In this document: one piece after another, positions 3,736-63,539 of the stretch
How the letters are laid out: each line of letters begins with the position of its first letter
Position numbering within the stretch: the stretch's first letter is position 1
Source: Zygnema cylindricum
Taxonomy: Eukaryota > Streptophyta > Zygnematophyceae > Zygnematales > Zygnemataceae
Direction of reading: 5' to 3'
Assembly (NCBI GenBank): GCA_037447655.1
Contig: JBBHKE010002749.1
Coordinates: 16,531-80,530 of the forward strand
Length of the DNA stretch: 64,000 nucleotides
Program-made: the position numbers and the translations under genes
Notes under the pieces: model-generated
Databases searched by the model: none
What the model was told of the DNA's origin: nothing
The model's input: the letters and a program-made list of their open reading frames with translations, nothing else

Positions 3736-4703
3736 TGTTTTTATTGGAAATCTTTAAGTCTCAATAAATTAGTGTGACGTCAAAAAGACAGCGTAAAAGA
3801 CACGGGTCGTCACTTAAAGAACAAAACAAGTGTTTTTATAAATAGCAACGATATCCATATACGTGCGTCACACATTGAACGGGACAAAGCAGTTGCGACG
3901 CACATGGTAATAAGCAGCTCCGACAGGACGAAGCAGCTGCGATGCAGATGGGACAAAGCACGTGCGATGGGACAATGGAGCTGCGGTTATTTTTAGATAT
4001 GATTCGTTACGGGACGACGCAGCTGCGACGAAGCTAGGGTGACGTTGAATATGATCCATAACGGGGTATAAAAGTTGCGGTTGATTTGAATCAAATCAAT
4101 GGACGAGATTCATGATAGGATCACAAGTGATTTGCAAGCAGGTGGTTTCGTAACATCTAGATGGACCTATCCATACAATAGTATCCAAGCCCGCAGCAAG
4201 TAATTGTACAGTCACTTACTATTAATCTCTCAGTAATATTGAGTGTAAAGTGGTAGAATCAGCTTTAGCGTGATTAGGAGAACTTAGATATTAGTAATAG
4301 TTTGGTTCTTGGACGTATCTCTTTGGAACACTTGTATCAGAGAGACACCACTAAGTAATAAGACAACTAGGAGTACAAACTCACTACGAGTATAAGACTT
4401 AGTACTTAGAACATTTTGTGTATCCAGACTTCCAGATTGTGTAATTTGGAAAAAATATTTGGGAAACTTATGAGTTGCAAATCTTGGTGTATGTTGGATT
4501 AATTGGGCTGAAACTTTGGAGTTGTCAATCTTTGTGATATTCTATACTGTGGTATAGTTTGAAGCAATTTGACTGTTGTATCATATTTGGTGAGCTGTAG
4601 AAAACAGCTGCTTGGTAGGATTCTTGGTTAGCTTCTGCGAGTGAATTATATCTACTTCTACTACTACTGCTCCTCCACCTGCACCACTAGTCTAAGAACA
4701 ACA
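3736..4703 (+). repeat. fam2 Copia LTR
   Basis: Starts TGTTTTTATTGG right after a polypurine tract and ends GAACAACA, giving the expected TGTT...AACA ends. The last part contains the ACTTCTACTACTACTGCTCC block that codes for the gag N-terminus in element F. A GACTTAGTACTTAGAACATTTT box lies at 4388-4410, about 310 bases before the LTR end. GC-rich GCAGTTGCG-like words cluster at 3885-4080. Confidence 0.75.
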
Positions 4704-5154: not shown

Positions 5155-6210
5155 TGTAGAAATTAATGGTTTTTAAAGTATTTTCTAGGTGTGAATAGAA
5201 ATAAGAAAGAAGCCGAGGCAGTCTACCTCTAACATCTCTCTCCAACTCTCAAACTTGTCGCAGTCACTGAGAAATTGGAGAGGGAGCTAGAGCCATGGCT
5301 ATCTAGGCAATCCAGAGGTTTACGGGAAAATATATTTTAGTTATAGGTTTTCTTTACTAAAAGATATATGCCGGCCACAGGATTTGATCGTGGTACCTAC
5401 CGGCCGGCAGACTGCCTGTAGCCGTTAGCCTTAGCCATTAAGTCTAGATGTAGTGTTACGTAATATAGGGTTTGATAATTAATTAAACATTAATACGTAG
5501 GATAAATCATTTAACTATAATTGTTTACGGGATACATAGAACCGGTAGTGTAAAAGTACAAATTGCGGTACGGATAAGAAATCAATACCGCGCATTGATT
5601 TCGTAAGCGAAACAAATACCGCGCATGTATTTATTACGGCTACGATCAAATGTGAATTTAATCAGACGGCCGGAATTAGCGCCGAGATCGCGGAAGAAGA
5701 ATTCGGCGGTTTGTGGCCATCGCCACATCGGATGACACGTGGCAAAATTACATTGGATCGTGGTATCTCCGGAGATTACGGCACCGAATCCGGATATGAC
5801 ATGTGTCGACATTAAGGCCATGTTGTACAATTTCCGTACATAAAGTACACCGGCGACTGTACTTTTGTGTACGGTGGAGAAATTTGATTGGCTCAGTACA
5901 TCAGTAGATAGAGTCTGTGAAAGAGATAGGACTTATAAAAAAATTAGGAGATAGGATCCTCTCTCCTAGAGAGCTTCTATACAAAAGGTCAACTTTGACC
6001 CTCCATAGATTACTGCTCAGGAGAGCAAATTCAAAGATTCTTTTTGCTATCGACTCAAAGGAGTCTTGCCTTCACAAGAGTGCAAGTGGTAAGAGTTTTT
6101 GTTTGCCAGGGTGGCAGTGGTTCTTGTTGAAACACAAAGGGGTCAAGATTATCCTAGAGGCTTCTTGGAAGCTGTCCACTCTGAGGACTTATAGAGGTCT
6201 CAGAGTTTCA
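5155..6210 (+). repeat. 5' LTR of element B
   Basis: Starts TGTAGAAATT and ends GAGTTTCA before GGTTATGAGCCC, about 1056 bases. Possible promoter parts near the middle are GATTGGCTC at 5888 (inverted CCAAT box) and GGACTTATAAAAAAATT at 5929, which carries both a TATA-like run and the box shared with other LTR families. A palindromic stretch around 5590-5625 recurs as a tandem triplet in the solo LTR at 43116. Confidence 0.88.
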
Positions 6211-6222: not shown

Positions 6223-7306
6223 ACCCTCTAGGGTACCAATATTTAATGGAACTGGCTTCATATACTGGGAAAGTATGATGATAGGAGTTCTATGCGAAAA
6301 AAGGTTTTGGGGGATAGTGAGTGGACGAATGGGGCGTCTATCAAGCTTTGGAATCCCTCCAGGGTTTGGAGGAAGCATATTCACCAGGAAAAAGGATCCA
6401 CCTTCAATAGAGGAGACAACGGAAGGAGAGGTGGTGGACAAAGGAAAGGAGAATGAGACGACCACACCAATAGCAACTGGTTCGGCATTCATGTCACCTA
6501 TTCGAGGAACGAGGAGAATGATATTGAAACCTGGGACTTCAACAATATGGCGGCAAATCACTCCATCCAACGCCATCTCACTCAAAGACTTGCATGTCCT
6601 CATTTGCACGTAGAAAGGGCATCTGATCTTTGGATGGCTCTCATAGAGATGTACCGAAGTGGTACGATTCAGCAACAACAGTTGGCTGATAAAAAAGTTA
6701 AGGAGTATGTATACAAAGGGGGAAATATGTTGGATTTTTGGAATGAACTTGCTACACTCTTCATGGAGCTAGAGAGTGGGGGAAAAGTTTTTAGTGAAAA
6801 AGAAAAGGTTAACTGTTTAGTGATTAAGTTACCCGATGAGTTCGGGAACATAGTCAACCGTGTGCAGGACTTGCCGGACTCAAGGTGGATATGGAACTCA
6901 GGTGGTAAGGATGATTCTCGTTTGAGAGAATACAATTGAGATCCGAATGGGAAGAAAGAGTGGCCAAGCCTTGGCAACAGCGACCGATTGGAGGAAGAAG
7001 GATTCTGGAAACCGGTCGAAAACTATGGGGGTAGGGAGCAGAAAAAAACAGACCGATGAGTTTCGAACCAAGGGCTCCCAAAGGTTTTTGTCATTTTTGT
7101 AAGAAACCTGGGCACTATATGGCAAAGTGCACTTAACTAACCGAGCTTCGGTTAAAGGATGGGCAGACCGGTGGTACTCCGAGAGGAAAGAAAAATGCCC
7201 TTATCACACAGGTACTTGAGTTTCAATCCGAGGACAAGGACGATGAGCTCCTTTTGGATGAGGAGTTGGAGGCGAAAAATGAGGTCGTAATTCCACGAAG
7301 GTAGAA
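6215..7306 (+). pseudogene. Copia gag (element B)
   Basis: Capsid and nucleocapsid gene. The first frame (6215-6613) starts MSPPSRVPIFNGTGFIYW, the conserved gag entry block. A second frame (6547-6939) carries the middle domain (WMALIEMYRSGTIQQQQLADKK). The zinc knuckle CHFCKKPGHYMAKC is at 7089-7130 in a third frame, and an acidic stretch leads to PRR and an amber stop at about 7302. At least two frameshifts are needed to read it through. The start inside the priming site is the first ATG, because an in-frame stop lies at 6182. Confidence 0.85.
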
Positions 7307-7322
7307 ATGTGCTTAAAGTGGA

Positions 7323-9000
7323 TTGAAAGGTGAAGCAGGCTGGATTATAGATTCAAGTGCCTCCATGCACATGTGTAAGGATAGGCACCTGTTCACTAAG
7401 ATAAGAAAGATTCCCACCGTACAGATAGAGTACGGGGATGGGAGGATAGTCACCACTTCTCTTGTTAGATCGGTAGATCTGAAAGTGTTAGTAGAAGGAA
7501 AGACATCCATATTAACATTCTCCGATGTATTATTTATTCCGGAGCTGAACAAAAATCTTATCTCTACATCAGTATTAGATGATAAGGGTTTTTTTACTAG
7601 CACTAGGGAAGGAGTTTTTAATGCTAGTTTTCAGGAGGATGTCTATTCATTGCTGAGAAAGGTAGCCATGGGATGTTTAGGCTGATTTTAAGTAATGAAA
7701 CGAAGAAACTTTATTATGCTGGTGTTCATGATATTATGATGTGGCATAAGAGGCTTGGGCATGTGAATCTAGATAAGTTAAGAGAGATGAAAAAGATGGG
7801 AGTGGTGGAAGGGATTCAATTCAGTGAGAGTGATGATATAAGTGATTGTAGTGGATGTGCTCAAGGTAAAGCAAACAGATTACCCTTTCCTATAACAACC
7901 ACCTATAAGGGAGAAAAAATTCTAGATCTTGTACACACAAATATTTGGGGAACGGCTAAAGTGCCCTCACCGGGGGGAAGAGATTTATGATGATTATAAC
8001 TGATAATTGGTCTCGGTATTCCCGAGGGTATTTTTTGAAAAACAAGTCAAAAGCTTAGGATTGTTTTAGACAATATAATGCGTGGAGCGAAAAACTCCAT
8101 GAAACTCCAATCAAGAGAGTAAGGAGGGACAATGGTGGAGAGTATACTTCTAACCAGTTTGAGGATTTTCTGAGGGAAGATGGGGTCCAACACCAAAAGA
8201 CAATTCCAGAAAATCCGGAACAGAATGGGGTAGCTGAAAGGTTAAATAGAACACTAAGTGATAACGCTAAAAGTATGTTGTCAGATAAAAAGATAAGAAA
8301 AAGGTTTTGGGCAGAAGCAATGAACTGTGCTAATTATCTCAAGAATAGAGTTCTTACTTCAGCTATAAAAGATCAAACACCTTATGAGAGATGGACAGGC
8401 CGGAAACTAGACATATCTCACTTAAAGGTTTTCGGCAGTCAAGTGTTCAGTCTAGATACTGATCGGTCCAATTGGAAGCTAGATCCTAAAGGAAAACCGG
8501 GATACTTATTAGGATATGATGAAGATGTTAAAGGATATAGAGTTTATGATCTAAAAAGGGAAGATATAATCTTCGTAAAGCATCTAGTAGTTATGGATGA
8601 AGGAAAGTCTGTGGATCCCTTCAAATATACGAAGTCAGTAAAAATCAGATTTGAGTTAGAAAATTCCGATGACTTTGAGCTTCCTAACTATCCAGGTTTT
8701 AGAGAAGATGACATTCTTGCAGGAACAAATCAGACCGAAAAGGACTCGGCTGTGGAAACTCCAGTGACAACTCTACTCGAAGCGGAAGACGTGGTGGAAA
8801 TTGATTCGGAATCAAGGGATAGGGGAGAAGCCGAGTTTGTTCAAAAGAATCCACGAGAACCATCTATTCCGGCCTCAGATTTTGAGGAAGGAAGGAGAAG
8901 TAGCAAAAGACTGCAAGTAAAACAGGTTAATAACAAGGTAACTAAACTATCTCATCAAGATAAACCTCAAACTTTTGAAGAGGCGATAACTTGTCCAGAA
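7323..9000 (+). pseudogene. Copia protease and integrase (element B)
   Basis: Protease block WIIDSSASMHMC at the start (DSSA instead of DSGA). The pre-integrase zinc finger follows at about 7740-7870 (HKRLGHV then CSGCAQGK). In the integrase core the first catalytic position reads LVHTNIWGT where element C has LVHADIWGP, an apparent Asp-to-Asn loss. The second Asp (DNGGEYTS, about 8130) and the Glu (NPEQNGVAER, about 8220) remain. The C-terminal part (8275-9000) has KVFGSQVF and the WKLDPKGKPGYLLGYD block common to Copia integrases. Frames change near 7680 and 8270. Confidence 0.85.
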
Positions 9001-10559: not shown

Positions 10560-11479
10560 TGTAGAAATTAATGGTTTTTAAAGTATTTTCTAGGTCTGAA
10601 TAGAAATAAGAAAGAAGCCGAGGCAGTCTACCTCTAACTTCTCTCTCCAACTCTCAATCTTGTCGCATTCACTGAGAAAATTGGAGAGGGAGCTAGAGCC
10701 GTAGCTACCTAGGCTATCCAGAGGTTTACGGGAAAATATATTTTAGTTAGGGGTTTTCTTTACTAAAAGATATATGCCGGCCACAGGATTTGATCGTGGT
10801 ACCTACCGGCCGGCAGACTGCCTGTAGCCGTTAGCCTTAGCCAATAAGTCTAGATGTAGTGTTACGTAATATAGGGTTTGATAATTAATTAAACATTAAT
10901 ACGTAGGATAAATCATTTAACTATAATTGTTTACGGGATACATAGAACTGGTAGTGTAAAGGTACAAATTGCGATACGGATAAGAAATCAATACCGCGCA
11001 TTGATTTCGTAAGCGAAACAAATACCGCGCATGTATTTATTACGGCTACGATCAAATGTGAATTTAATCGGACGGCCGCAATTATCGCCGAGATCGCGGA
11101 AGAAGAATTTGGCGGTTTGTGGCCATCGCCACATCGAATGACACGTGGCAAAATTACATTGGATCGTGGTATCTCCGGAGATTACGGCACCGAATCCGGA
11201 GATGACATGTGTCGACATTAAGGCCATGTTGTACAATTTCCGTACATAAAGTACACCGGCGACTGTACTTTTGTGTACGGTGGAGAAATCTGATTGGCTC
11301 CGTACATCAGTAGATAGAGTCTGTGAGAGAGATAGGACTTAGAAATAAATTAGGAAATAGGATCCTCTCTTCAGAGTGCTTCGGTACAAAAGGTCAACAT
11401 TGACCCTCTATAACTTACTGTTCAGGAGAGCGAATTCAAAGATTCTTTTTGCTATCGACTCAGGGGAGTCTTGTCATTC
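10560..11479 (+). repeat. 3' LTR of element B, truncated
   Basis: Starts TGTAGAAATTAATGG and matches the 5' LTR up to about GGGGAGTCTTG (11474), including the GGACTTAGAAATAAATT version of the shared box near 11336. It then breaks into the minus-strand LTR that begins at 11480. About 120-130 terminal bases are missing. Confidence 0.85.
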
Positions 11480-33859: not shown

Positions 33860-34486
33860 AAAGCTGAGTGTCCTCATTCCGCCAAAACCGGCGCAGCAAC
33901 TTCGGAGAATGCAGATCCCCCTCGTCCACCTAAGAGTCGTCCTCAGCACCGTAGCCCTTCCAACGCACCAAATATTGGGTGGAGTTGGAATTCCGAGCGT
34001 GGCGTGATTGAATGATCGCTTCTACTTCATACTCGTCCGAGGTTCCCCGAACAGGTGGTAAAGGAGTATGTCGTCGTCGACCAAGAAACACCAAATCAGG
34101 ATCGCGGAATGGCTTAAGAAGGGAAACATGAAAGTCATTGTGGATATGCAAGTCCGTCGGAATATCGAACTTGTAAGCCACGACGCCCACACGGGAAAGA
34201 ATTGTGAACGGGCGCGTGAACTTCGGTGTCAACTTCTTAGTGAGGGCACCCGGCAAAGAGAGGTTTGCCATATCAAGGCGAACTTTGTCCCCCACGTTAA
34301 AGACGGTGTCCTTCCGATGAGCATCACCCTGCGACTTTTGTCAATCCTTTGCCATTTGGAGCGCCTTGGTCGCATTTTCTAGATTATTTTGCAGCGTTTT
34401 GGCAAAGTCCAGAGCTGCCGGGGTTTGGCAGTCCGCTACCAATAAGTTTTGGGGAAGAGTGGGTTGTCGTCCATTGAGGGATTACC
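33860..34486 (-). pseudogene. Ty3/Gypsy integrase C-terminus with chromodomain
   Basis: End of a chromovirus-type Pol. From 34486 down: ALDFAKTLQNNLENATKALQMA (read in two parts around a stop), then [37 protein letters not shown] (GPY/F-like module) and [12 protein letters not shown]. The chromodomain follows: [31 protein letters not shown] at 33930 stands where Trp is expected (VDEGDLHSPKLLRRF continues in frame). Chromodomains steer integration to heterochromatin in chromoviruses. The reverse transcriptase and integrase core are absent. Confidence 0.85.
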
Positions 34487-35561: not shown

Positions 35562-35686
35562 TTCGGGGTTACATACCACACTAAATCCTGTCTACGCCAA
35601 TTTAGTCTGTACACAAAAATGACTAAGTTCGAGATCTCCTTCTCACACACGAGATATAAAGAGGACTAAAGGTTTCAAAAACGAAA
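35562..35686 (-). repeat. 5' LTR of element G, first 125 bases
   Basis: Matches 24568-24693 of the element G 3' LTR (TTACATACCACACTAAATCC, CACACACGAGATATA, GACTAAAGGTTTC). The right end is followed by CGTTT and satellite, which mirrors the satellite broken at CCTTT beside the 3' LTR. It is the missing piece of the 5' LTR at 28833-29482. Confidence 0.8.
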
Positions 35687-38485
35687 CGTTTATTGTTCGC
35701 GGTCACAAAAAGAGGTAAAATAAACTCCGCACCATGTTTATAACATATGTTTTTGTTTACGCTAACAACAATACTGATAACAAACACTTTACATTGTTAT
35801 TGCTCACAAAGTTATATAAGAAAACCCTAAACCTTGCTTCTATCACAAATTTGAGTTTGCACTAACAAAGATATTTGTAACAAACAACGTTTATTGTTTG
35901 TGGTCACAAAAAGAGGTAAAGTAAACTTCAAACCATGTTTATAACACAAGTTTGTGTTTGCGCTAACAACAATAGTGGCAATAAACACTTTAAATTGTTA
36001 ATGCTCACAAAAATAGTTAAAAAGAACCCTAAACCATGTATATAACACAAATTTGTGTTTGCGCTAACAAAGATATTTGTAACAAACAACTTTTGTTGTT
36101 TTGCGGTCACAAAAAGAGGTAAAATAAACTCCAGTCCATGTTTGTAACACAAGATTGTGTTTGTGCTAACAACAATAGTGGTAACAAACACTATATGTTG
36201 TTAACGCTCACAAAAATAGTTTAAAAAAACCCTAAACCATGTTTCTAACACAAATTTGAGTTTGTGCTACCAAATATATTTGTAACAAACAACGTTTGTT
36301 GTTCATAGTCACAAAAAGAGGTAATATAATCTCCAAACCATGTTTGTAACACAAGTTTGTGTTTGTGCTAACAACAATAGAGGTAACAAACATTTTATAT
36401 TGTTTACGCTCACCAAAATTGTTTAAAAAAACCGTAATCCTTGTTTCTTTCACAAATTTGAGTTTGCACTAACAACGATATTTGTAACAAACAACGTTTA
36501 TTGTTTGCGGTCACAAAAAGAGGTAAAATAAACTCCACACGATGTTTATAACACAAGTTTTTGTTTGCACTAACAACAATAGTGGTAACATCCACTATAT
36601 ACTGTTAACGCTCACAAAAATGGTTAAAAAAAAGCCATAAACCATGTATCTAACACAAATTTGTGTTTGCGCTAACAAAGATATTTGTAACAAACAATGT
36701 TTATTGTTCGTGGTCATAAAAAGAGGTAAAATAAAACCCTAACCATGTTTGTTTGGTAAAAAAAATATTATATTGTTAACGCTCACAAAAATTGTTCAAA
36801 TAAACTCTCAACCATGTTTATAACTCAAATATGTGTTTGTGCTAACAATCATTTCTTGTAACGAATAACGTTTATTATATACACTCACAAAAACAGTAAA
36901 AGAAAACCCTCAACTATGCTTGCAACACCAATTTGTGTTTGTGATAACAACAAAAATATTAACGAATATAATTTATTTTTAACGCACACAAAGTGAGTTA
37001 GAAAAAACCATAAACCATGTTTCTATCACAAATTTAAGTTTGCGCTAACAAATATATTTGCAACAAACAAATTTTATTGTTAGCTCTCACAAAAAGAGGT
37101 AAAATAAACTCCTAACCTTGTTTGAAACAAAACTTTGTGTTTGCGTTAACAACAATATCGATAGCAAACACTTTATATTGTTTGCGTCCACAAAAATAGT
37201 TCAAAATAAACTCTAAACCATGTTTATAACTCAAATTTGTGTTTGCGCTAACAATCATTTCTTAAATCGAACAACGCATTTTATTATGCTCACAAAAACT
37301 GTAAAAATAAACTTTAAACTATGTTTGCAACAAAGATATGTGTTTACGTTAACAACAAAAGTATTAACAAACAAGTTTATTGTTAAAGCACACAAAGAGA
37401 GTGAAAAAAAACCATATACCATGTTCTTATCACCAATTTGCGGGTTCGCTAACAAAAATATTTGTAACAAACAACGTTTATTGATCCTGCCAACAAAAAT
37501 AATTCAAAACACACGCTCAACCATGTTTATAATTCAAATTTGTGTTTGGGCTAACAATAACTTCTTGTAACAGTTTTTTTTTAATTATAACGCTCACAAA
37601 AAAAGTAAAAATAAACCCTAAAATATGTTTGCAACACAAATTTGTGTTTACATTAACAAAAAAAATAACAACATACAAAGTTTATTATCAACGCAGACAG
37701 AGAGTGTTAAAAAAAAACCCTTAACCATATTTCTATCGCATATTTGAGTTTCCGCAAACAATCATTTTTTGTAATGATCAACGTTTATTATTACGCTCAC
37801 AAAAAAAGTAGAAAAAACCCTCAACTATGTTTGCAACACAAATTTGTGTTTGCGTTAACAAAAAAAATGTTAGCTAACAAAGTTTTTTGTTAAAGCGCAC
37901 AAAAGGAGTTAAACAAAACCTTAAACCATGTTTCTATCAAAAATTTGAGTTTGTGCTGACAAAAATATTTGTAACAAACAATGTTTATTGTTCGAGCTTA
38001 CAAAAAGAGGTAAAATAAACACCAAACCATGATTGTAACAAAAAAAATGTGTTTAAGAAGCCAACAACATTGGTAACAAACACTTTATATTGTTAGCACC
38101 CACAAAAATAATTCAAAATAAACTATAAACCATATTAATTACTCAAATTTGTGTTTGCGCAAACAATAAATCTTTGTAACGAACAACATATACTATTACG
38201 CTAAAAAAAATAGCATTAAAAAACCCTAAACTATGTTTGCAAAACAAATTTTTGTTTGCGTAAACAACAAAAATATTAACGAACAAATTTTATTGTTAAT
38301 GAACACAAAGAAAGTTAAAAAAAACCTTAAACCATGTTTATATCACAAATTTGAGTTTGCGCTAACAAAGATATTTGTAACAAATAACGTTTATTATTTG
38401 AGCTTAGAAAAAGATGTAAAATAAACTCCGAATCATGTTTCTAACACAGCTTTGTGTTTGCGATACCAAAAATATTGGATACAAA
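35687..38485. repeat. Satellite array, right part (about 28 monomers)
   Basis: Same ~102-bp monomers as 19331-23872. Several copies have the exact palindrome AACACAAATTTGTGTT (for example 36046 and 36653). Monomers toward the right end diverge more (AACAAAAATATTAACGAAC variants with GCACACAAAGAGAGT), so the array has at least three monomer classes. The right end meets an LTR end at 38486. Confidence 0.9.
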
Positions 38486-38890
38486 TGTTGTTCTACAACC
38501 ACTGGTGCAGGTGGAGGAGCAGCAGTAGTAGTAGAAGTTGAGATGATACACTCTCAAAAGCTATCAAAAATATCAAAAAACCTACGAAACAGCCGTTTGC
38601 AAGTGCTCACCAAATCTTATACAAGCATCCAAACTTCACAAAACTCTATCAGACTATACAGCAGCATAAACAGTGACAACTCCCAAAATTTCAGTACAAT
38701 TGACTCGACAACACTCAAGATATAATACTCAAAAGTTTCCCAAAAACTGTTTGCAGTTTTACAACTTAGAAGTCTTGATACATAAAATGTTCCAAGTCTT
38801 AAGTCTTATACTCTCAATGAGTATTTGCTTAGTGTCGTACTGCGGACAAAAGTGTACGTGAAAGGTAAGTCCAAAAATTAACGTGCAACA
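38486..38890 (-). repeat. fam2-type LTR, short copy
   Basis: The plus strand starts TGTTGTTCTACAACC, the complement of the fam2 LTR end, and includes the coding block for MISTSTTTAAPPP-like residues in reverse. It carries GACTTAAGACTTGGAACATTTT near 38793. The start is placed at GCAACA (38890), giving about 405 bases, less than half the length of other fam2 LTRs, so an internal deletion is likely. Confidence 0.65.
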
Positions 38891-38919
38891 AAAGTCTAAG
38901 TATTCTTATTCCCACCAAA

Positions 38920-39869
38920 CTAATATATCATCATATCATCAACTAATCTATCTGCTCTGGTTCTCGGTGGAAATCCCATTGCTTGTTCTCGTTCCTCAAT
39001 ACTTGGTGCTCTCCACGCAGCGTTTCTACTGTCAAAGATCATTCCTGGTGCAAAATTCCGGTAAGCACGGCTGTTAGGGAAAGATACCACGGTCGGTAGG
39101 GCCCTTCGTGGAATCTCGGGTTTATTGCAACCAAAAAAGGGTGCTCGGTCGGCTGTGGTAACAGGGGTGGCCATTTGCCCTGGTCCGAGGATTTGTTGAA
39201 TTGTGATGTTGGGATCAGGAACCTGTGTGTTTAATAACTGTTGGAGGATGGGTAGAGGCACCAAGTTGGTTTAATAAGCATGAACTTACTGGGCTCTTGA
39301 TCCAACCTGTGCTGCAACAAACACTATTGCAGTCTCCAAAACCTTGGTCACTTGGTTCCAGCTGTTGACAACCTCTTTCCTTTTATCATCTGTGGGGTGA
39401 ACATTTCCAAGACCAACCCCAGTGGGTGTGTCTTGGCGTTCCTGTAACTCTGTTATTAGTCGAGTCTTTTGAAAAAATGTTCTGCAACAGACATCCTGGT
39501 GTCCCCTGCCCTGTCCTGCTAAAAAATACCCCTGGCAAGGCCATCTAACGATCACCATGTATACACTTTCTAGCTTCTCCAAATGTGAATCTGTGATGTT
39601 TTCTACATTCTGGGGAAGCGTATGGTGAGAGTTAGAATGGCGAACACCGAGAGTTGCTGTGGGTAAAGTTGGTGGAGCCAATGCTCTCGATGCTCAATGT
39701 CTGTGTGGGCGTTCGGGTCAATCTCGATTGCCCTGTAAGTTTCTACTTGGTATCTAGCTATTAGGTTGGCTTCGAGGTCGGAACTAATGCCGGAGAATAG
39801 CGAGAGAATTCGGAGTCCTGAGGGCGGGATATCCACTGACACCACTTGTCGATTGAAGTCCTTGTCGGT
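38920..39869 (-). pseudogene. C5-cytosine DNA methyltransferase in a Gypsy element
   Basis: Catalytic domain of a DNA cytosine-5 methyltransferase, motifs in canonical order. Motif I is LSLFSGI (39806-39786, the AdoMet loop; GG became SS). Then YRAIEIDPNA at about 39737-39708 (motif II). Motif IV is WPCQGYFLAGQGRG with the catalytic Cys at 39537-39535. The motif VI position reads GNV (39408-39400) where ENV is expected. Motif VIII region is AAQVGSRAQ, and APSIEEREQAMGFPP (39009-38965) matches the motif IX region. Motif X is missing. One frameshift between motifs II and IV and two ochre codons near 39288 and 39273 break it. It follows the element's protease by about 0.4 kb on the same strand. 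It could instead be an unrelated host gene fragment, but the adjacency argues against this. Confidence 0.87.
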
Positions 39870-40199
39870 TTAGGAATCGTTTGGAGTTCGGGCTAGATGA
39901 ACCTTACTGTCCTGGATGATATGCTGACAAAGCTCTTGTCCACTCCCCGGCGAAGTGTGGCCATCTATACAAATCTGCTTTGATACTCCCTTTCCCACGG
40001 CTTGGAGATGGGGAATTACTAGATGGAATTCCCGATATCGGTGGAATCTTCAAACAGCTGTGAAAGGGTGGATGCATAGTACACCGGACATCATCCAGCC
40101 ACAAGAACAATTGTTTTCCCGCGGTTCAATAAATCCAAAGGGACCACCACTTTGGTGCCCTCTGTATTTTCCGGGTCTTACACTGTAACTTGTTCCTTC

Positions 40200-40816
40200 C
40201 ATATGCTCAACTCCATATTCAACCTTGTCCACGTGGCCATACCCAACACAATTTCAAATTGCTTACCTTCCATCACAAGGAAGAAGAGCTTAATTTGCAC
40301 GTGTTGGCCTGCGTCATCCGCTAATTTGATTTCCATTGCCTTAATGATGCCATACAGTGGTTACCTCCCGTTGTTGACCGTACCTAGGCATATTTCGCAG
40401 GGGCTAATTTTAGGCCTAATTTCCTCGGGCATTTTGTGTAATGCTGAGGTTGTTATGAGATTAAGGAGGGTACCGGTATCCACCACTGCATCTTGATACC
40501 CGCTGTATCCATTAAGTGTAAAATTACATGTCTTGTTAAAAATAAGAGCCACCTACAGGGCCTTATAATCTTTAACTGCCATATATGTTTTCGGTCCTGC
40601 CGACATGAAGACTGTCTTGGGTGGTTCTTCCAACGCGACCCATTCCCACCTGGTGTGAATCTCTTCCCCTAGTGCCTGAATGAGGATTTTTTCGGGCAAA
40701 TTGTGGGAGGAAGCTTGCGTTTTGATGTGGTCAAGGCGTAGGGCATCAAGTGTCGCATTGACATAACTGCTGGCATAGAAGAAGGAGGGTAAGCTTTGGG
40801 CGATGAAATGGGTGAG
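40200..40816 (-). pseudogene. Ty3/Gypsy retropepsin
   Basis: Aspartic protease of a Gypsy Pol. The minus frame upstream (40816-40560) reads SSYVNATLDALRL and HTRWEWVALEEPPKTVFM, then VALIFNKTCNF and the active site AVVDTGTLLNLIT at 40486-40448. KLFFLVMEGKQFEIVLGMATW is the C-terminal Ile-Leu-Gly block of retropepsins (about 40280-40220). Stops lie at about 40553 and 40358. It sits between gag and the methyltransferase, and is the main evidence that the latter is part of an element. Confidence 0.8.
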
Positions 40817-42279: not shown

Positions 42280-43115
42280 GCGGTCCTTTGGTTCAATTGG
42301 TTGATTGTTCTTTCTTTGTGCAGACGTGGTAGAGTGGAGTTGCCTGCAATTGTCTCGACCTCGACATTCCAGGCTCCGAACAGAAATGTTCGAGCATTAT
42401 GAGCCTTTGGAGGCTCCATATCCAAACCCATGAGTTCATCATGATCTACACCCACCTTGTATGCTGTTCTAGATCCGCTAGCTTTCGTAGCAGATTTTGT
42501 TTCTCTTTATGCAGTTTTTGAGCATGCGTTAAAGGTGGAGGTGTGTGGGTCTTCGATCCCAAACGGAGAGCAGCCAATTTCGCTGCCATGGCTGCCAATT
42601 GAGTGATTTGCTGCTCAATGATGTGTTGCGGCGTCATGTTACTTGGTCCTGGTTCATTATGAGATGGACGTCCCCAGGGATGCAAAAGTTGCAATGGTGG
42701 AGGATAAACAACTGTTTCCCCCTCATCTGTGAACAAAACATATTGCATCATTTTTTTTGGGACCCTATATTTCCGGAAAAACATTGCCTTTCCTTGTGGC
42801 CCATGAAATAAAATGCCTCAAATTTTGACCCCTTTGTGGTGTAATTCCCTCTTAACTCATTAAAGATCTAAGCATCATCAAATTTAGGAATTTTGATTTG
42901 CCTTAACTAAGATTGAGACATTTTAGCAGTTTCGGAATGGGGAGTAGGTTTATAAGTTTCTTTTGTGATCGGCGTGCGATCCCCTTATCCTCCTCCCTGT
43001 CTGCGTTTATGCTGCTTCAGGGTTCTTTTTGCAAGTTTTTTCTCAAACTCCTTTTGCTTGATAGCGAGTTCAGGGTTCAGCTTCCTGAGCATGTTTTCCA
43101 CCCGTGACCGGTTTG
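42280..43115 (-). pseudogene. Ty3/Gypsy gag, middle part
   Basis: Frames at 42446-42784 (VLFTDEGETVVYPPPLQLL, IIEQQITQLAAMAAKLAALR, a helical stretch) and 42258-42455 (GVDHDELMGLDMEPP, NARTFLFGAWNVE) join by a frameshift near 42450. To the right, PELAIKQKEFEKKLAKRTL (about 43080-43020) is coiled-coil-like. The text reads as one Gypsy capsid region but matches no family I can name. Confidence 0.6.
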
Positions 43116-44356: not shown

Positions 44357-46150
44357 GTTTGGTTGCAGTTCAGGCAAACGTACAGGTAAACATTTTCATA
44401 GGCACCCATTGCAGGCTCGGATCTAGTCTCAGCTTCCTATTTCCCCTTAAGCTTCCACAAAGCTTGAAGTTGTGTTTGTTCCTCTTTGTTAAGAGAGGAT
44501 TCCCCCGTGAAACCTATAAAGTTGGCTTGCGCTTTGCTGGTAACAACCTTTTCTCTGGCCTTGCTGTTTACAAAATGATCTTATATCTTTATTACAGCCA
44601 ATGAAGTTTGTGGTGCCGTGGGATTCTTGTCGTGGATTGCGTGATAGACACTCTAATTGTCAAGAGCTGCTTGTCTTGTTGGTCTGAACGAGTTTCGAAT
44701 AGTGAAGTAATATTTTGTGGCCATGGCTGGAGTGTCAACGATAGACAGCTTGATCTTCTGACAGAGGCTCGAGAGGCGCTTGAAAAACGTCTACGGGGTT
44801 TGATATTTCAAACATCGAAATTACGTGAATTCCTTGATTATTGATTTCGTTCCTTTCTGTATAAAGGAGTCTTTAGGCCTCCAGAAGATTGGTGCAAGGA
44901 GTACGGTTGGCCACCATTTGGGTATCTACCTCAGCGGCATGTACGGCCTGCAAATTGTTAACTTAGGTTCTCCTTTATGCATACAATTTCATGTTTATAG
45001 TGAAAGTAGCAGTAACAAGGAGTGGTGCGGCTTGAGCTAGGTCGGCGGCTGCATTAAGGGCTTCGGCGTCAAGCACCGAATTTAAAATTTTGATGTTAGG
45101 AGCCATCAAAGGGGGTTGACGCTCCTTATTGTCAGCCAAAGCTCTTCATGCTAAAAAGTTTACCATCATAAGGAAAAGAGTGGTCTCAAAATCTCGTGAG
45201 ATGACCCCTTCCTTGTATTTGTTAACTTTTGACTGCATGAAGGATTTCCCCAACAGTTCAAAATCTGAGAAATCGATCCCCGATCTATCTCCCTTAAAGA
45301 TCTTTATGTCCCCCATTTCTTTTTCCTCCTCAGCAATGTGGGTGAACTGTGGAAAGTTTGGTCTGGTGGGGCTGACAAACTGAGCACGTGAAATGGCTCA
45401 GAGATCTGCCCCTTCTATATCTAAACCTCTTTCTCCTCCGGGTGAAACAGTTGGGATCTTCCCCCCCCAATGACGATGGTCTTGCTTTCAAAGGAGGTGT
45501 GGAATTTTTGGCTCCTATATATCCATGAGAGTATTTTTCCTCTCTCAAAAGTGTCTCCATCAATGGGATGTGGAGACAAGGTCTGTTCAAAGGCCTCAGT
45601 GGAATAGACGGCAATGGAGACAGAGACGACTAGGGACTTTGAGGAAAAGGTGTCTCGCTTTAGGGCAGCCTTTTAGAGGTCTCAGGAGGAGGAGTTCCAG
45701 AGCTGGAAGGTGGGGGGAATCGGTGAGGAGGTGAGTAGGTGAGGACGTCGTATTTGTAGGGCAAAACAAGCGGGTCTAAGAACCCCCGGACGGCTACAGC
45801 GGGAGAAAAGGATGGCGAAGGAGAGGAGGCGTGAGGTGGTGATGGGGGAGGAGTGGACTAGGTGAGAGAAATGTGTAATCTCTGGTCGGGTTATATTTCC
45901 ACCACGGCCTCCACTGTGGAAGTCCCTGCCACCAAGACAAAGGTTGAATGCTTTGTGGACAGAGCTGCCAAGTTACCCAGTAGATCTGCACCCAACCCCA
46001 TTTCGTTAAATCTTGTTGTCCCCCCCCTTTTCCGCTCAAGGGGAGATTACGGTCTAGGTCCCAGGTGAGTCCTTGCGGCCTGTATTGTAGGAGGAGTTGC
46101 TTGACTCTAAGGTGGTCTTCCTGCAGAGGAACCTATTCTACAAAGGGGAT
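44357..46150 (-). pseudogene. Ty3/Gypsy gag, N-terminal part
   Basis: Fragments in changing frames: QEDHLRVKQLLLQYRPQG and MGLGADLLGNLAALSTKH (46130-45950), IKILNSVLDAEALNAAADL (45090-45030), and KAREKVVTSKAQANFIGF with LNKEEQTQLQALWKLKG (44570-44450). C tracts at 45461-45468 and 46019-46026 fall in it and would favour slippage. No clear start codon or LTR is left; the right end is cut by element I. Confidence 0.5.
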
Positions 46151-46439
46151 CAACTTGTCCACTAAAGATCACTGATGACTCATGTCCTTGTGAAACTTAC
46201 GCTACAAACTACTACCTTTCTGCTGTCACACTAATTTACTGAGACTTAAAGTTTTCCAAAATCAATACTCCTCTAAAACTTTAGACTTAGTGTATCAACG
46301 CAGTTGCGATGTCACATCTAGCGCAGCATGGTAGCGCAACATGGCAACATAGCAACCCAGCAAACCAACTACTCACTTCGTTCCACTACATCCTAATTTT
46401 GTGCTAGTGCAACATAGCAGTATCAGAGTGTAGCAACTC

Positions 46440-57368: not shown

Positions 57369-58213
57369 TGTAGTCTTTTTGGAAAGCTTTCAGTCTTAGA
57401 GCAACGCAGCTGCAATACAGACAGAGCAGCGCAGCTGCTATACAGACAAAGCAGGGCAGCTGCTATAGTGCAGAGCAGCGCAGCAGCACAGCAGGGCAGC
57501 TGCTATAGTGCAGAGCAGCGCAGCAGCACAGCAGACAGAGCAGCGCAGCTGCTATACAGCAGAGCAGCTCAGCAACGCAGCAAGAGAGCAACGCAGCAGC
57601 GAAGCTGCAACAGAGACAAGACAACGCAACCATGATTATATTTGATATGGTCCGTACAAACAACGCAGCGTCTGATATTCTTAATGTGATTCTGTACGGG
57701 ATAGAGCAACTGCAATAGATACGATTCTAGTCAACTTAGTGGGGAACTCAGTGGTAACTTAGTGGGTAACTCAGTGGTATTTTAGTGATAGCTCAGTGGT
57801 AGCTTAGTGATAGCTTAGTGGTAGTTTGACAGATTAGTGGTAGTGTGGTGGTTTGATGTACCTCTCAAGTACACTGGTGTTGCCAGTTCAACACAAGTAT
57901 AAGACTTAGGACTTAGAACATATTATGGATCTAGACTTCCAAGTTGTAAAACTGCAGACAGTTTTTGGGAAACTTTTGAGTATTATATCTTGAGTGTTGT
58001 CTGGTCAATTGTGCAGAAACTTTAGGAATTATCATTGTTTATGCTAATCTATATTTTGATAGAGTTTTGTGAGGTTTGGATCATTGAATAAGAATTAGTG
58101 AGCACTTAAGAACAGCTGTTTGGTAGGATTCTTGATAGTTTCTGAGAGTGTATCATGTCTACTTCTACTACCACAGCTGCTCCTCCACCTGCACTGGTGG
58201 TTGTAGAACAACA
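57369..58213 (+). repeat. 5' LTR of element F
   Basis: Opens TGTAGTCTTTTTGG, ends GTAGAACAACA. It has a minisatellite of GCAGCGCAGCAGCACAGCAG-like units at 57400-57620 and a second tandem of CTTAGTGATAGCTCAGTGGTAG units at 57735-57845. The GGACTTAGAACATATT box is at 57907, about 310 bases from the end. The gag ATG is at 58155 (MSTSTTTAAPPPALVVVEQQ), within the LTR. Confidence 0.88.
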
Positions 58214-62462: not shown

Positions 62463-63266
62463 TGTTGTCTTTTTGGAAAGCTTCCAGTCTCACAGCAGCG
62501 CCTTTGCTATACAGACAGAGCAGGGCAGCTGCTATACAGACAAAGCAGGGCAGCTGCTATAGTGCAGAGCAGCGCAGCAGCACAGCAGACAGAGCAGCGC
62601 AGCTGCTATACAGCAGAGCAGCTCAGCAGCGCAGCAGGAGAGCAACGCCGCAGCGAAGCTGCAACAGAGACAAGACAACGCAACCACGATTATATTTGAT
62701 ATGGTTCGTACAGACAACGCAACGTCTGATATTTTTAATGTGATTTTGTACAGGATAGAGAAACTGCGATAGATACAATTCTAGTCATCTTAGTGGGGAA
62801 CTCAGTGGTAACTTAGTGGGTAACTCAATGGTAGCTTAGTAATAGCTCAGTGGTAGCTTAGTGATAGCTCAGTGGTAGTTTGACAGATTATTGGTAGCTT
62901 GGTGGTTTGATGTACCTCTCAAGTACACTGGTGTTGCCAGTTCAACACAAGTATAAGACTTAGGACTCAGAACATATTATGGATCCAAACTTCCAAGTTG
63001 TAAAACTGCACACAATTTTTTAGAAACTTGTGAGTATTATATCTTGAGTGTTTTCGGGTCAATTGTGCTGATACTTTGGGAGTTATAAGTGTTTATGCTA
63101 CTCTGTATTTTGATAGAGTTTTGTGAGATTTGGATGCTTGTATAAGAATTATTGAGCACTTAAGAACAATTGTTTAATAGGATTCTTGGTAGCTTCTGAG
63201 AGTGTATCATGTCTACTTCTACTACTACAGCTACTCCTCCACCTGCATCAGTAGTTGTAGAACAAC
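62463..63266 (+). repeat. 3' LTR of element F
   Basis: Opens TGTTGTCTTTTTGG, ends GTAGAACAACA. It has the same CAGC-rich and TAGCTCAGTGG tandem zones as the 5' LTR but with fewer units. The gag start block follows at 63209. Right after its end lies fam3 protease text instead of host sequence, so it may also have served as the 5' LTR of a hybrid unit. Confidence 0.87.
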
Positions 63267-63539
63267 AGAATGAAGATGGAAAACCTGTGAAAAAGGTCTT
63301 AAAAGATGTGTTGCATGTTCCTGCTTTTAAAAGAAACATTTTCTCTACGTAAGTGGTAGAAAAGAAAGGTTTTAAGACAATATCTGAGATTGGACAGAAA
63401 CTAGTCTATAAGAATAGGAATATAGTTGTAGAAGGATTTGTTAGAGGAAACAATTTAAATCGGTTCAGTCTTGCAAATGATAAGGACAATGATGTTATGT
63501 ACTCAAGTGTAATCATTATTTGTGATTTATGGCATTAAC
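63267..63539 (+). pseudogene. Copia protease to pre-integrase fragment (fam3)
   Basis: Reads NEDGKPVKKVLKDVLHVPAF, then IFST, a stop, VVEKKGFKTISEIGQKLVYK, GFVRGNNLNRFSLANDKDND and CDLWH. It aligns with 51286-51545 of element E1. It is joined to the exact end of a fam2 LTR on the left and to a fam3 LTR start on the right. Confidence 0.82.

Follow-up and report, generated by a model that had tools for sequence, protein, structure and literature searches.

The stretch of DNA analyzed here, a 64-kb window of the Zygnema cylindricum genome, carries on its minus strand a retropepsin-like domain followed, 0.3 kb further on, by a C5-methyltransferase domain. An earlier note on this DNA had read the pair as part of a Ty3/Gypsy long terminal repeat (LTR) retrotransposon with a DNA methyltransferase (DNMT) gene between its protease and its reverse transcriptase (RT). 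The two features are listed below, with amino acid identities given relative to L013, a related copy elsewhere in the genome.

40181 to 40552, minus strand: retropepsin-like domain, from VDTGT to an ILGM-like end, with an in-frame stop; two profile matches, 75% identity to the L013 protease frame
38954 to 39869, minus strand: DNMT3-like C5-methyltransferase, lacking motif X and cut after the GF block; three profile matches, the larger piece 73% identical to L013

Searches with the window copy by itself remained below threshold. The methyltransferase matched Pfam PF00145 with an E value of 0.0016 when read through its defects and 0.0067 as one piece, the protease matched PF13650 at 0.017, and NCBIfam was likewise sub-threshold. 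One methyltransferase piece found nothing in the PDB at an E value of ≤1, and the read-through translation had HhaI as its best match, at 0.91. A profile built from relatives was therefore used instead. The methyltransferase profile, made from nine aligned relatives with the window copy excluded, was run on a six-frame translation of the window, covering all 1540 pieces of 25 amino acids or more. At an E value of ≤0.01 it matched just three pieces, all on the minus strand and in order: 39869-39606 (3.9e-19), 39693-39289 (3e-45), and 39270-38923 (9.1e-43). Five mononucleotide-shuffled versions of the window gave no match at this threshold, a control that covers the methyltransferase model only. 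A protease profile from family-B copies (see below) matched the minus strand at 40552-40364 (6.8e-29) and 40360-40181 (5.3e-27). The methyltransferase retains LSLFSGI, EIDPN, PCQG, and EEREQAMGF in that order; the motif numbers used in this text are those we take to apply to these domains. It also has a frameshift near 39640, two in-frame stops, and GNV in place of ENV. The earlier note had described the protease and the methyltransferase in canonical motif order on one strand, together with each of these defects, and all of this is confirmed. The domain call was thus correct, yet it could not have been proved by Pfam from the window copy.

The Z. cylindricum genome (352,776,454 bases in 2689 contigs) contains many relatives of this pair. 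A search with PF00145 yielded 782 candidates, 123 of which were scored; all 123 passed the cut-off, 85 were stop-free within the match, and 26 lay within open frames of 500 amino acids or more. Twenty of the scored loci were read. They were mostly picked for long frames, and two of them, L009 and L013, also supplied the domain queries, so that they form a biased sample and the proportions below do not represent the family as a whole; L009 and L010, both in the sample, are near-identical in the methyltransferase. A protease match was found ahead of the methyltransferase on the same strand at all 20 loci. Downstream, again on the same strand, RT was present at 18, an integrase at 17, and a PHD finger at 16 of the loci, the PHD match of L021 spanning just 32 amino acids. 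In L024 the part from RT to PHD is inverted, L025 runs into another element, no integrase or PHD was found in the L022 stretch, and no PHD was found in that of L015. The L022 locus also contains, at 6800-8500 (with the match turned to the plus strand) and downstream of RT, many overlapping direct repeats of about 64-67% identity.

One copy, L009, encodes gag, protease, methyltransferase, RT, RNase H, integrase, and PHD finger in a single stop-to-stop frame of 2395 codons. It matched PF00145 (2e-11), RVT_1 (1.4e-29), RNase H (2.6e-34), Integrase_H2C2 (4e-15), rve (1.7e-11), and PHD (1.5e-9), while its matches to the zinc knuckle zf-CCHC and to the protease families were weak and under the curated cut-offs. 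L013, which belongs to family B like the window copy, matched PF00145 (8.2e-13), RT, RNase H, integrase, and, weakly, PHD (0.0044). Altogether, the methyltransferase is joined to RT in single frames of 2395, 1757, 1643, 1525, and 1520 codons.

The same loci bear on the explanation that a host DNMT gene (DNMT3, CMT, or DNMT1) merely lies beside a retrotransposon, or was once carried by one. The genome does possess at least one host-type methyltransferase gene. This DNMT1/MET1-like gene, on C2527:79997-82439 (L036/L037), shows two matches to the RFTS domain that seem to lie in different exons, and one exon matched DNMT1 chains of 1507-1574 residues in the PDB at about 1.5e-46, the next group of long chains following at 3.3e-6. 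Plant MET1 is of this length, and the latter group is presumably mammalian, so that the gene probably places the host in the green lineage. The assembly contains no rbcL. The ADD family of DNMT3 had no match in the genome but none in the controls either, and is uninformative. The loci read here, however, show none of the marks of a host DNMT gene, namely single or low copy number, introns, and no adjacent Pol. Protease is followed by methyltransferase at 20 places in the genome, the long frames link the domain to RT, and repeats flank the whole element in all five cases in which flanks were fetched. The repeated adjacency refutes a chance association, which we regard as extremely improbable. 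The placement between protease and RT in a retrotransposon claimed by the earlier note is accordingly upheld, and the result that it had named as fatal, a lack of any other copy with this adjacency, did not occur. The identity of the element as Gypsy-type, with a DNMT3-type methyltransferase between protease and RT and mostly with a PHD finger after the integrase, is almost certain.

To judge from sequence comparison, the methyltransferase is of the DNMT3 type and not rearranged, with motifs I to X in linear order. In the PDB, the L013 domain matched DNMT3A best (1.1e-14, residues 9-224), followed by DNMT3B (5.8e-10), HhaI (3.6e-5), and DRM2 (1.5e-3). Across nine aligned domains, one of them partial, there is no variation in the presumed catalytic Cys, in the motif VI Glu-Asn, or in the first motif VIII Arg. 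The copies fall into three families, A, B, and C, and A and B are 40-42% identical in the methyltransferase alignment. Motif IV reads WPCQG in families B and C and WECQG in five family-A copies (L009, L018, L024, L011, and L016), the Cys being kept; such a fixed change is unusual.

Two trees were inferred under LG+G4, one for the methyltransferase (20 rows) and one for RT together with RNase H (19 rows, since L025 has none). Family A stood apart from B plus C with support of 100/100 in both trees, and family B was grouped at 99/96 in the methyltransferase tree and 96/95 in the RT tree. Within family A the two trees contained identical sets of copies, with support of 91-93 in the RT tree. L020, of family C, carries a long-branch warning in the methyltransferase tree. 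Because the two trees show the same groups, the domain and its RT seem to have traveled together from a time before the split of the families, and a single capture of the methyltransferase would be the simplest reading. A scan of a viral collection with the methyltransferase alignment gave one relative among 25 pattern matches, which we read as an ordinary phage-type methylase gene, and none of 37 pattern matches in bacterial and archaeal genomes was confirmed.

The PHD finger lies where chromoviruses, which are Ty3/Gypsy elements, carry an integrase-linked chromodomain. The long frames of L009, L013, and L017 had no match to the Chromo domain and contain the PHD finger instead. In the PDB, the L009 finger matched those of PHF12 (5e-16), BAZ2B (1.9e-12), KDM5B (2.4e-11), and PHF21A (1.3e-11). 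Several of these fingers recognize histone H3 tails in which lysine 4 is unmodified.

To describe the ends of the elements, flanks were fetched for five of them, C1344, C829, and C1915 (family A), C1100 (family C), and C1042 (family B). All five have split direct repeats in the arrangement A-coding-B-A-B. In C1344, C829, and C1915, repeat A (931, 1388, and 1475 bp; 100, 99.6, and 99.5% identity) occurs once ahead of the coding region and once behind it, and repeat B (243, 190, and 192 bp; 99.5-99.6%) directly flanks the second A on both sides. The repeats are 96.0 and 95.8% identical in C1100 and 83 and 94.8% identical in C1042. The first B is preceded by a G run, as expected of a polypurine tract. 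The elements begin with TGTC and end with GACA, the exact start being lost in the first A of C1042, and the three family-A elements are bounded by perfect 4-bp target duplications, identified by eye (TTGG, AAGG, and CCCT). The internal joint between B and A, GACA-GC-TGTC (GACAGCTGTC), is two bases longer than the joined element ends; these resemble the two extra bases that integrases trim. The exact 10-mer GACAGCTGTC follows the PHD finger at nine of the 20 loci, with each of the three families represented, and L023 has it with one change. Action of an integrase would explain the 4-bp duplications, and the Pfam matches in the L009, L013, and L017 frames include rve and Integrase_H2C2 and no tyrosine recombinase. 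The earlier note's expectation of full-length copies with protease, DNMT, RT, and integrase in one frame is thus realized in L009; the LTRs that it expected around them take the form of split direct repeats in all five elements, rather than that of a plain LTR pair.

An arrangement of this kind could also arise if an ordinary LTR element had inserted head to tail or as a circle: A-coding-B-A-B corresponds to a two-LTR circle, with an LTR composed of B plus A, that was opened at the B-A joint. However, the identical arrangement recurs in five of five elements from three families, the GACA-GC-TGTC joint is conserved, and the insertions end without the two joint bases and with 4-bp duplications in three of the five. 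The shared arrangement, the conserved joint, and the trimmed and duplicated ends together point to a heritable structure, and we give circle insertion only a slim chance.

Patterns of substitution suggest that the methyltransferase has been under constraint. Among the family-A subgroup copies L009, L011, and L016, synonymous sites of the methyltransferase differ by 75-79% and nonsynonymous sites by 10.6-15%, the corresponding nonsynonymous difference in RT being 3.5-4.7%. With silent sites saturated, this degree of nonsynonymous change indicates that the amino acids are constrained, although less so than in RT. The window methyltransferase piece differs from five family-B copies by a nonsynonymous rate (dN) of 0.15-0.17 and a synonymous rate (dS) of 0.67-0.88. 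For recent pairs, defined by a dS of 0.05-1.5, the median dN/dS of RT was 0.054 in family A (10 of 55 pairs) and 0.287 in family B (6 of 10 pairs).

Several observations weigh against our reading of these elements. The Glu that replaces the usual Pro of motif IV in family A means that activity is not assured. The methyltransferase evolves faster than RT (nonsynonymous difference, pN, of 0.14-0.15 versus 0.043-0.047 for L009 against L011 and L016), and its dN/dS in recent pairs is no more than moderately low, with medians of 0.317 in family A (5 of 28 pairs, eight copies) and 0.284 in family B (10 of 10 pairs, five copies), values above that of family-A RT but close to that of family-B RT. One copy in each of these methyltransferase sets has a stop, and decay after insertion would raise such figures. 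The Pfam protease match falls under the curated cut-off in L009 (0.012), L013 (2.1e-4), and L017 (2.7e-4). The PHD finger of L013 is below the Pfam cut-off, its first cysteine pair being oddly spaced by our reading, and no same-strand PHD was found at four of the 20 loci. Finally, the two older elements have no perfect target duplication: C1100 matches at three of four bases (TCTT versus TCTC), and C1042 has no clear duplication.

Some of these points would fit a methyltransferase that is structural or vestigial, kept inside Pol for a role such as RNA binding or packaging without methylating DNA. The ECQ of family A in place of PCQ and the dN/dS of about 0.3 between recent copies are in line with such a role, as is the finding that a methyltransferase borne by a long interspersed nuclear element (LINE) of Symbiodinium gave no DNA methylation in yeast (PMC5890265). 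Against it stand the invariance of the presumed catalytic residues in the nine aligned domains and the limited nonsynonymous change between subgroups whose silent sites are saturated. The same paper also describes retrotransposon DNMTs as able to methylate CGs de novo. We therefore consider a purely structural or vestigial domain unlikely.

The window copy itself is a much reduced member of family B. Six family-B loci (L012, L013, L022, L023, L025, and L026) align to it from gag, beginning at 46169, through protease and methyltransferase at 68-80% nucleotide identity, with interruptions at 44360-43109 and 42282-41104, where other repeats have inserted. The parts of the relic beyond the two domains given above, and the repeats that interrupt or adjoin it, are as follows.

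45394 to 46169, minus strand: gag-like coding, 5' piece, continuous with the next piece in the L025 alignment; 69-71% identical by blastn to L012, L013, L022, L025, and L026 over parts, and matched by tblastn with the L013 gag frame
44360 to 45394, minus strand: gag-like coding, second piece; 74-75% nucleotide identity to L012, L013, L022, and L026
43110 to 44359, no strand assigned: insertion within the gag region, across which family-B loci are contiguous (L026 position 2342, then 2347); about 68% alike to window 5178-6146 and 10583-11469, and by our reading a retroelement repeat
42282 to 43109, minus strand: gag C-terminal region of the relic; 75-76% nucleotide identity to L012, L013, L023, and L026
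41105 to 42281, plus strand: inserted LTR-like repeat, diverged from related repeats at 29.9-30.96 and 34.48-35.56 kb and inverted with respect to them; family-B loci are nearly contiguous across it (L026 position 3170, then 3200)
38486 to 38953, no strand assigned: LTR-like repeat adjoining the truncation point, its first 327-339 bp copied at 57896-58213, 62950-63267, and 4379-4703; L024 matches 38930-38486

The extent of 38920 to 40560 proposed earlier was therefore too short, gag-like coding of the relic beginning at 46169. At the other end, homology stops at 38954-38958, right after the GF block, in five of the six family-B loci, and another repeat starts there; the sixth alignment, with L025, stops at 38985, where L025 itself is cut off. 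By our reading, the "PPRTRADRL..." beyond the GF block would be foreign sequence. Since family-B homology ends at this point, truncation accounts for the absence of motif X, RT, RNase H, and integrase. The earlier note was right that motif X is absent but listed this under decay; the copy is truncated and not only decayed. Pfam (E value ≤0.1) detected no RT, RNase H, or integrase core in any of the three frames of the minus strand between 33001 and 42600. The relic is very probably what remains of a dead Gypsy-type retrotransposon copy, namely its 5' half with gag, protease, and the greater part of the methyltransferase.

The sole Pfam matches in those minus-strand frames lie at 33880-34292 and comprise a Tf2-1 SH3 integrase tail (2.4e-15) and a chromodomain (2.7e-8). 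This tail was considered as the 3' end of the relic and rejected: the relatives end in PHD, a satellite and repeats intervene, and there is no family-B match at this place. We assign it to another Gypsy family. The LTR-like repeat at 34.48-35.56 kb lies directly upstream of this tail. A satellite-like array at 35685-38476 with units of about 101 bp, to which a 202-bp period also fits, adjoins the other LTR-like repeat, the one at 38486-38953 beside the relic. Retroelements make up much of the window. Copia-type elements with long Pol frames, as read from the list of open reading frames, occur at 6-17 kb (plus strand), 25.4-28.6 kb (minus), 46.2-48.8 kb (minus), 50.7-54 kb (plus), and 58.8-62.2 kb (plus). 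The 64-kb window contains no tRNA genes.

The Zygnema elements share features with several known groups. They resemble chromoviruses in the order protease-RT-RNase H-integrase and in a chromatin-binding domain at the end of the integrase; they differ in that this domain is a PHD finger rather than a chromodomain and in the methyltransferase between protease and RT. Ginger1 elements are DNA transposons and thus lack RT. Like the Zygnema elements, they have a Gypsy-like integrase with an extra C-terminal domain, Ginger1-9_HM carrying Ulp1 and a PHD finger; the available part of the source names no methyltransferase in them (PMC2836005).

Retrotransposons bearing a DNMT have been described from one charophyte and from dinoflagellates (PMC5890265), a finding cited in a 2025 survey, in which the families are named Copia and DIRS (PMC12344493). 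The charophyte element, KnitGypsy-Dnmt3 of Klebsormidium nitens, has an intronless Dnmt3 domain in a Gypsy Pol and DIRS-like repeats (PMC5890265, de Mendoza et al. 2018). It is like the Zygnema elements in its Dnmt3-type domain without the DRM rearrangement, in lacking introns, in its Gypsy-type Pol and Gypsy domain composition, and in the A-coding-B-A-B arrangement. On the points that could be tested, Ka/Ks apart, the Zygnema elements thus appear to be of the kind described as KnitGypsy-Dnmt3. Compared with its description, rather than with Klebsormidium sequences, they stand out in showing 4-bp target duplications, in the ECQ motif IV of one family, and in comprising three diverged families within a genome of 353 Mb. 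Ka/Ks between KnitGypsy-Dnmt3 copies is below 0.2, whereas the medians here are 0.317 (family A, five pairs) and 0.284 (family B), with dS saturated between subgroups. The term PHD does not occur in the main text of PMC5890265, figures and supplements aside, whereas most copies read here have the finger. SymbioDIRS-Dnmt3 of Symbiodinium likewise has a Dnmt3-type domain in Pol and the A-coding-B-A-B arrangement but uses a tyrosine recombinase (PMC5890265), whereas the Zygnema elements have an H2C2 plus rve (DDE) integrase and 4-bp duplications in three of five cases. A tyrosine recombinase and the absence of a target duplication, which define DIRS elements, are thus not what is seen here. In our searches of the open-licence literature, supplements excluded, no Gypsy retrotransposon, with or without a DNMT, was described as having a PHD finger, which is no proof of novelty. 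As far as this literature search went, the C-terminal PHD finger, the three diverged families in one genome, and the evidence on integration are new.

These comparisons outline how the domains might work together. The polyprotein would be cut into separate enzymes in the particle. There, or in the pre-integration complex, the DNMT3 part would place 5-methylcytosine on the new cDNA or on the fresh insertion, which may then pass as host-like or be protected. Before joining the TGTC/GACA ends, the integrase would trim off two extra bases, which the internal B1|gc|A2 junction still retains. The PHD finger may bind a histone H3 tail and guide the integrase to its place of insertion. Chromodomains steer the insertion of chromoviruses likewise. 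Whether the methyltransferase methylates the element's own DNA is, in our estimation, an evenly balanced question, and steering of integration by the PHD finger is a plausible role that we put at somewhat below even. The domains might instead act chiefly on the host, methylating the surrounding chromatin or the target site and quieting the element or its neighbors, with the PHD finger as recruiter. A single polyprotein that combines a DNMT3-type writer with a PHD finger resembling solved histone readers would suit such a role, but Pol proteins usually act in the particle and the pre-integration complex, and we consider an action chiefly on the host improbable. Returning to methylation of the element's own DNA, we tentatively propose a Gypsy lineage with a writer (DNMT3-type, at the front of Pol) and a reader (PHD, behind a DDE integrase), replicating with split direct repeats and inserted by its integrase with 4-bp duplications, that may be self-methylating and histone-guided, with a replication scheme unlike that of LTR or DIRS elements.

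A genomic parasite thus seems to encode a writer and a likely reader of the epigenetic marks of its host. The benefit of such an enzyme to the element is a standing question, for which a copy-rich genome, three families, and the added PHD finger provide test material. At least one copy has identical long repeats and is a recent insertion. With this material it may be asked whether a DDE integrase can insert an element with split direct repeats, whether the chromatin read by the PHD finger is where insertions land, and whether new insertions arrive methylated. The ECQ motif of family A offers a natural variant for asking if catalysis is what is kept.

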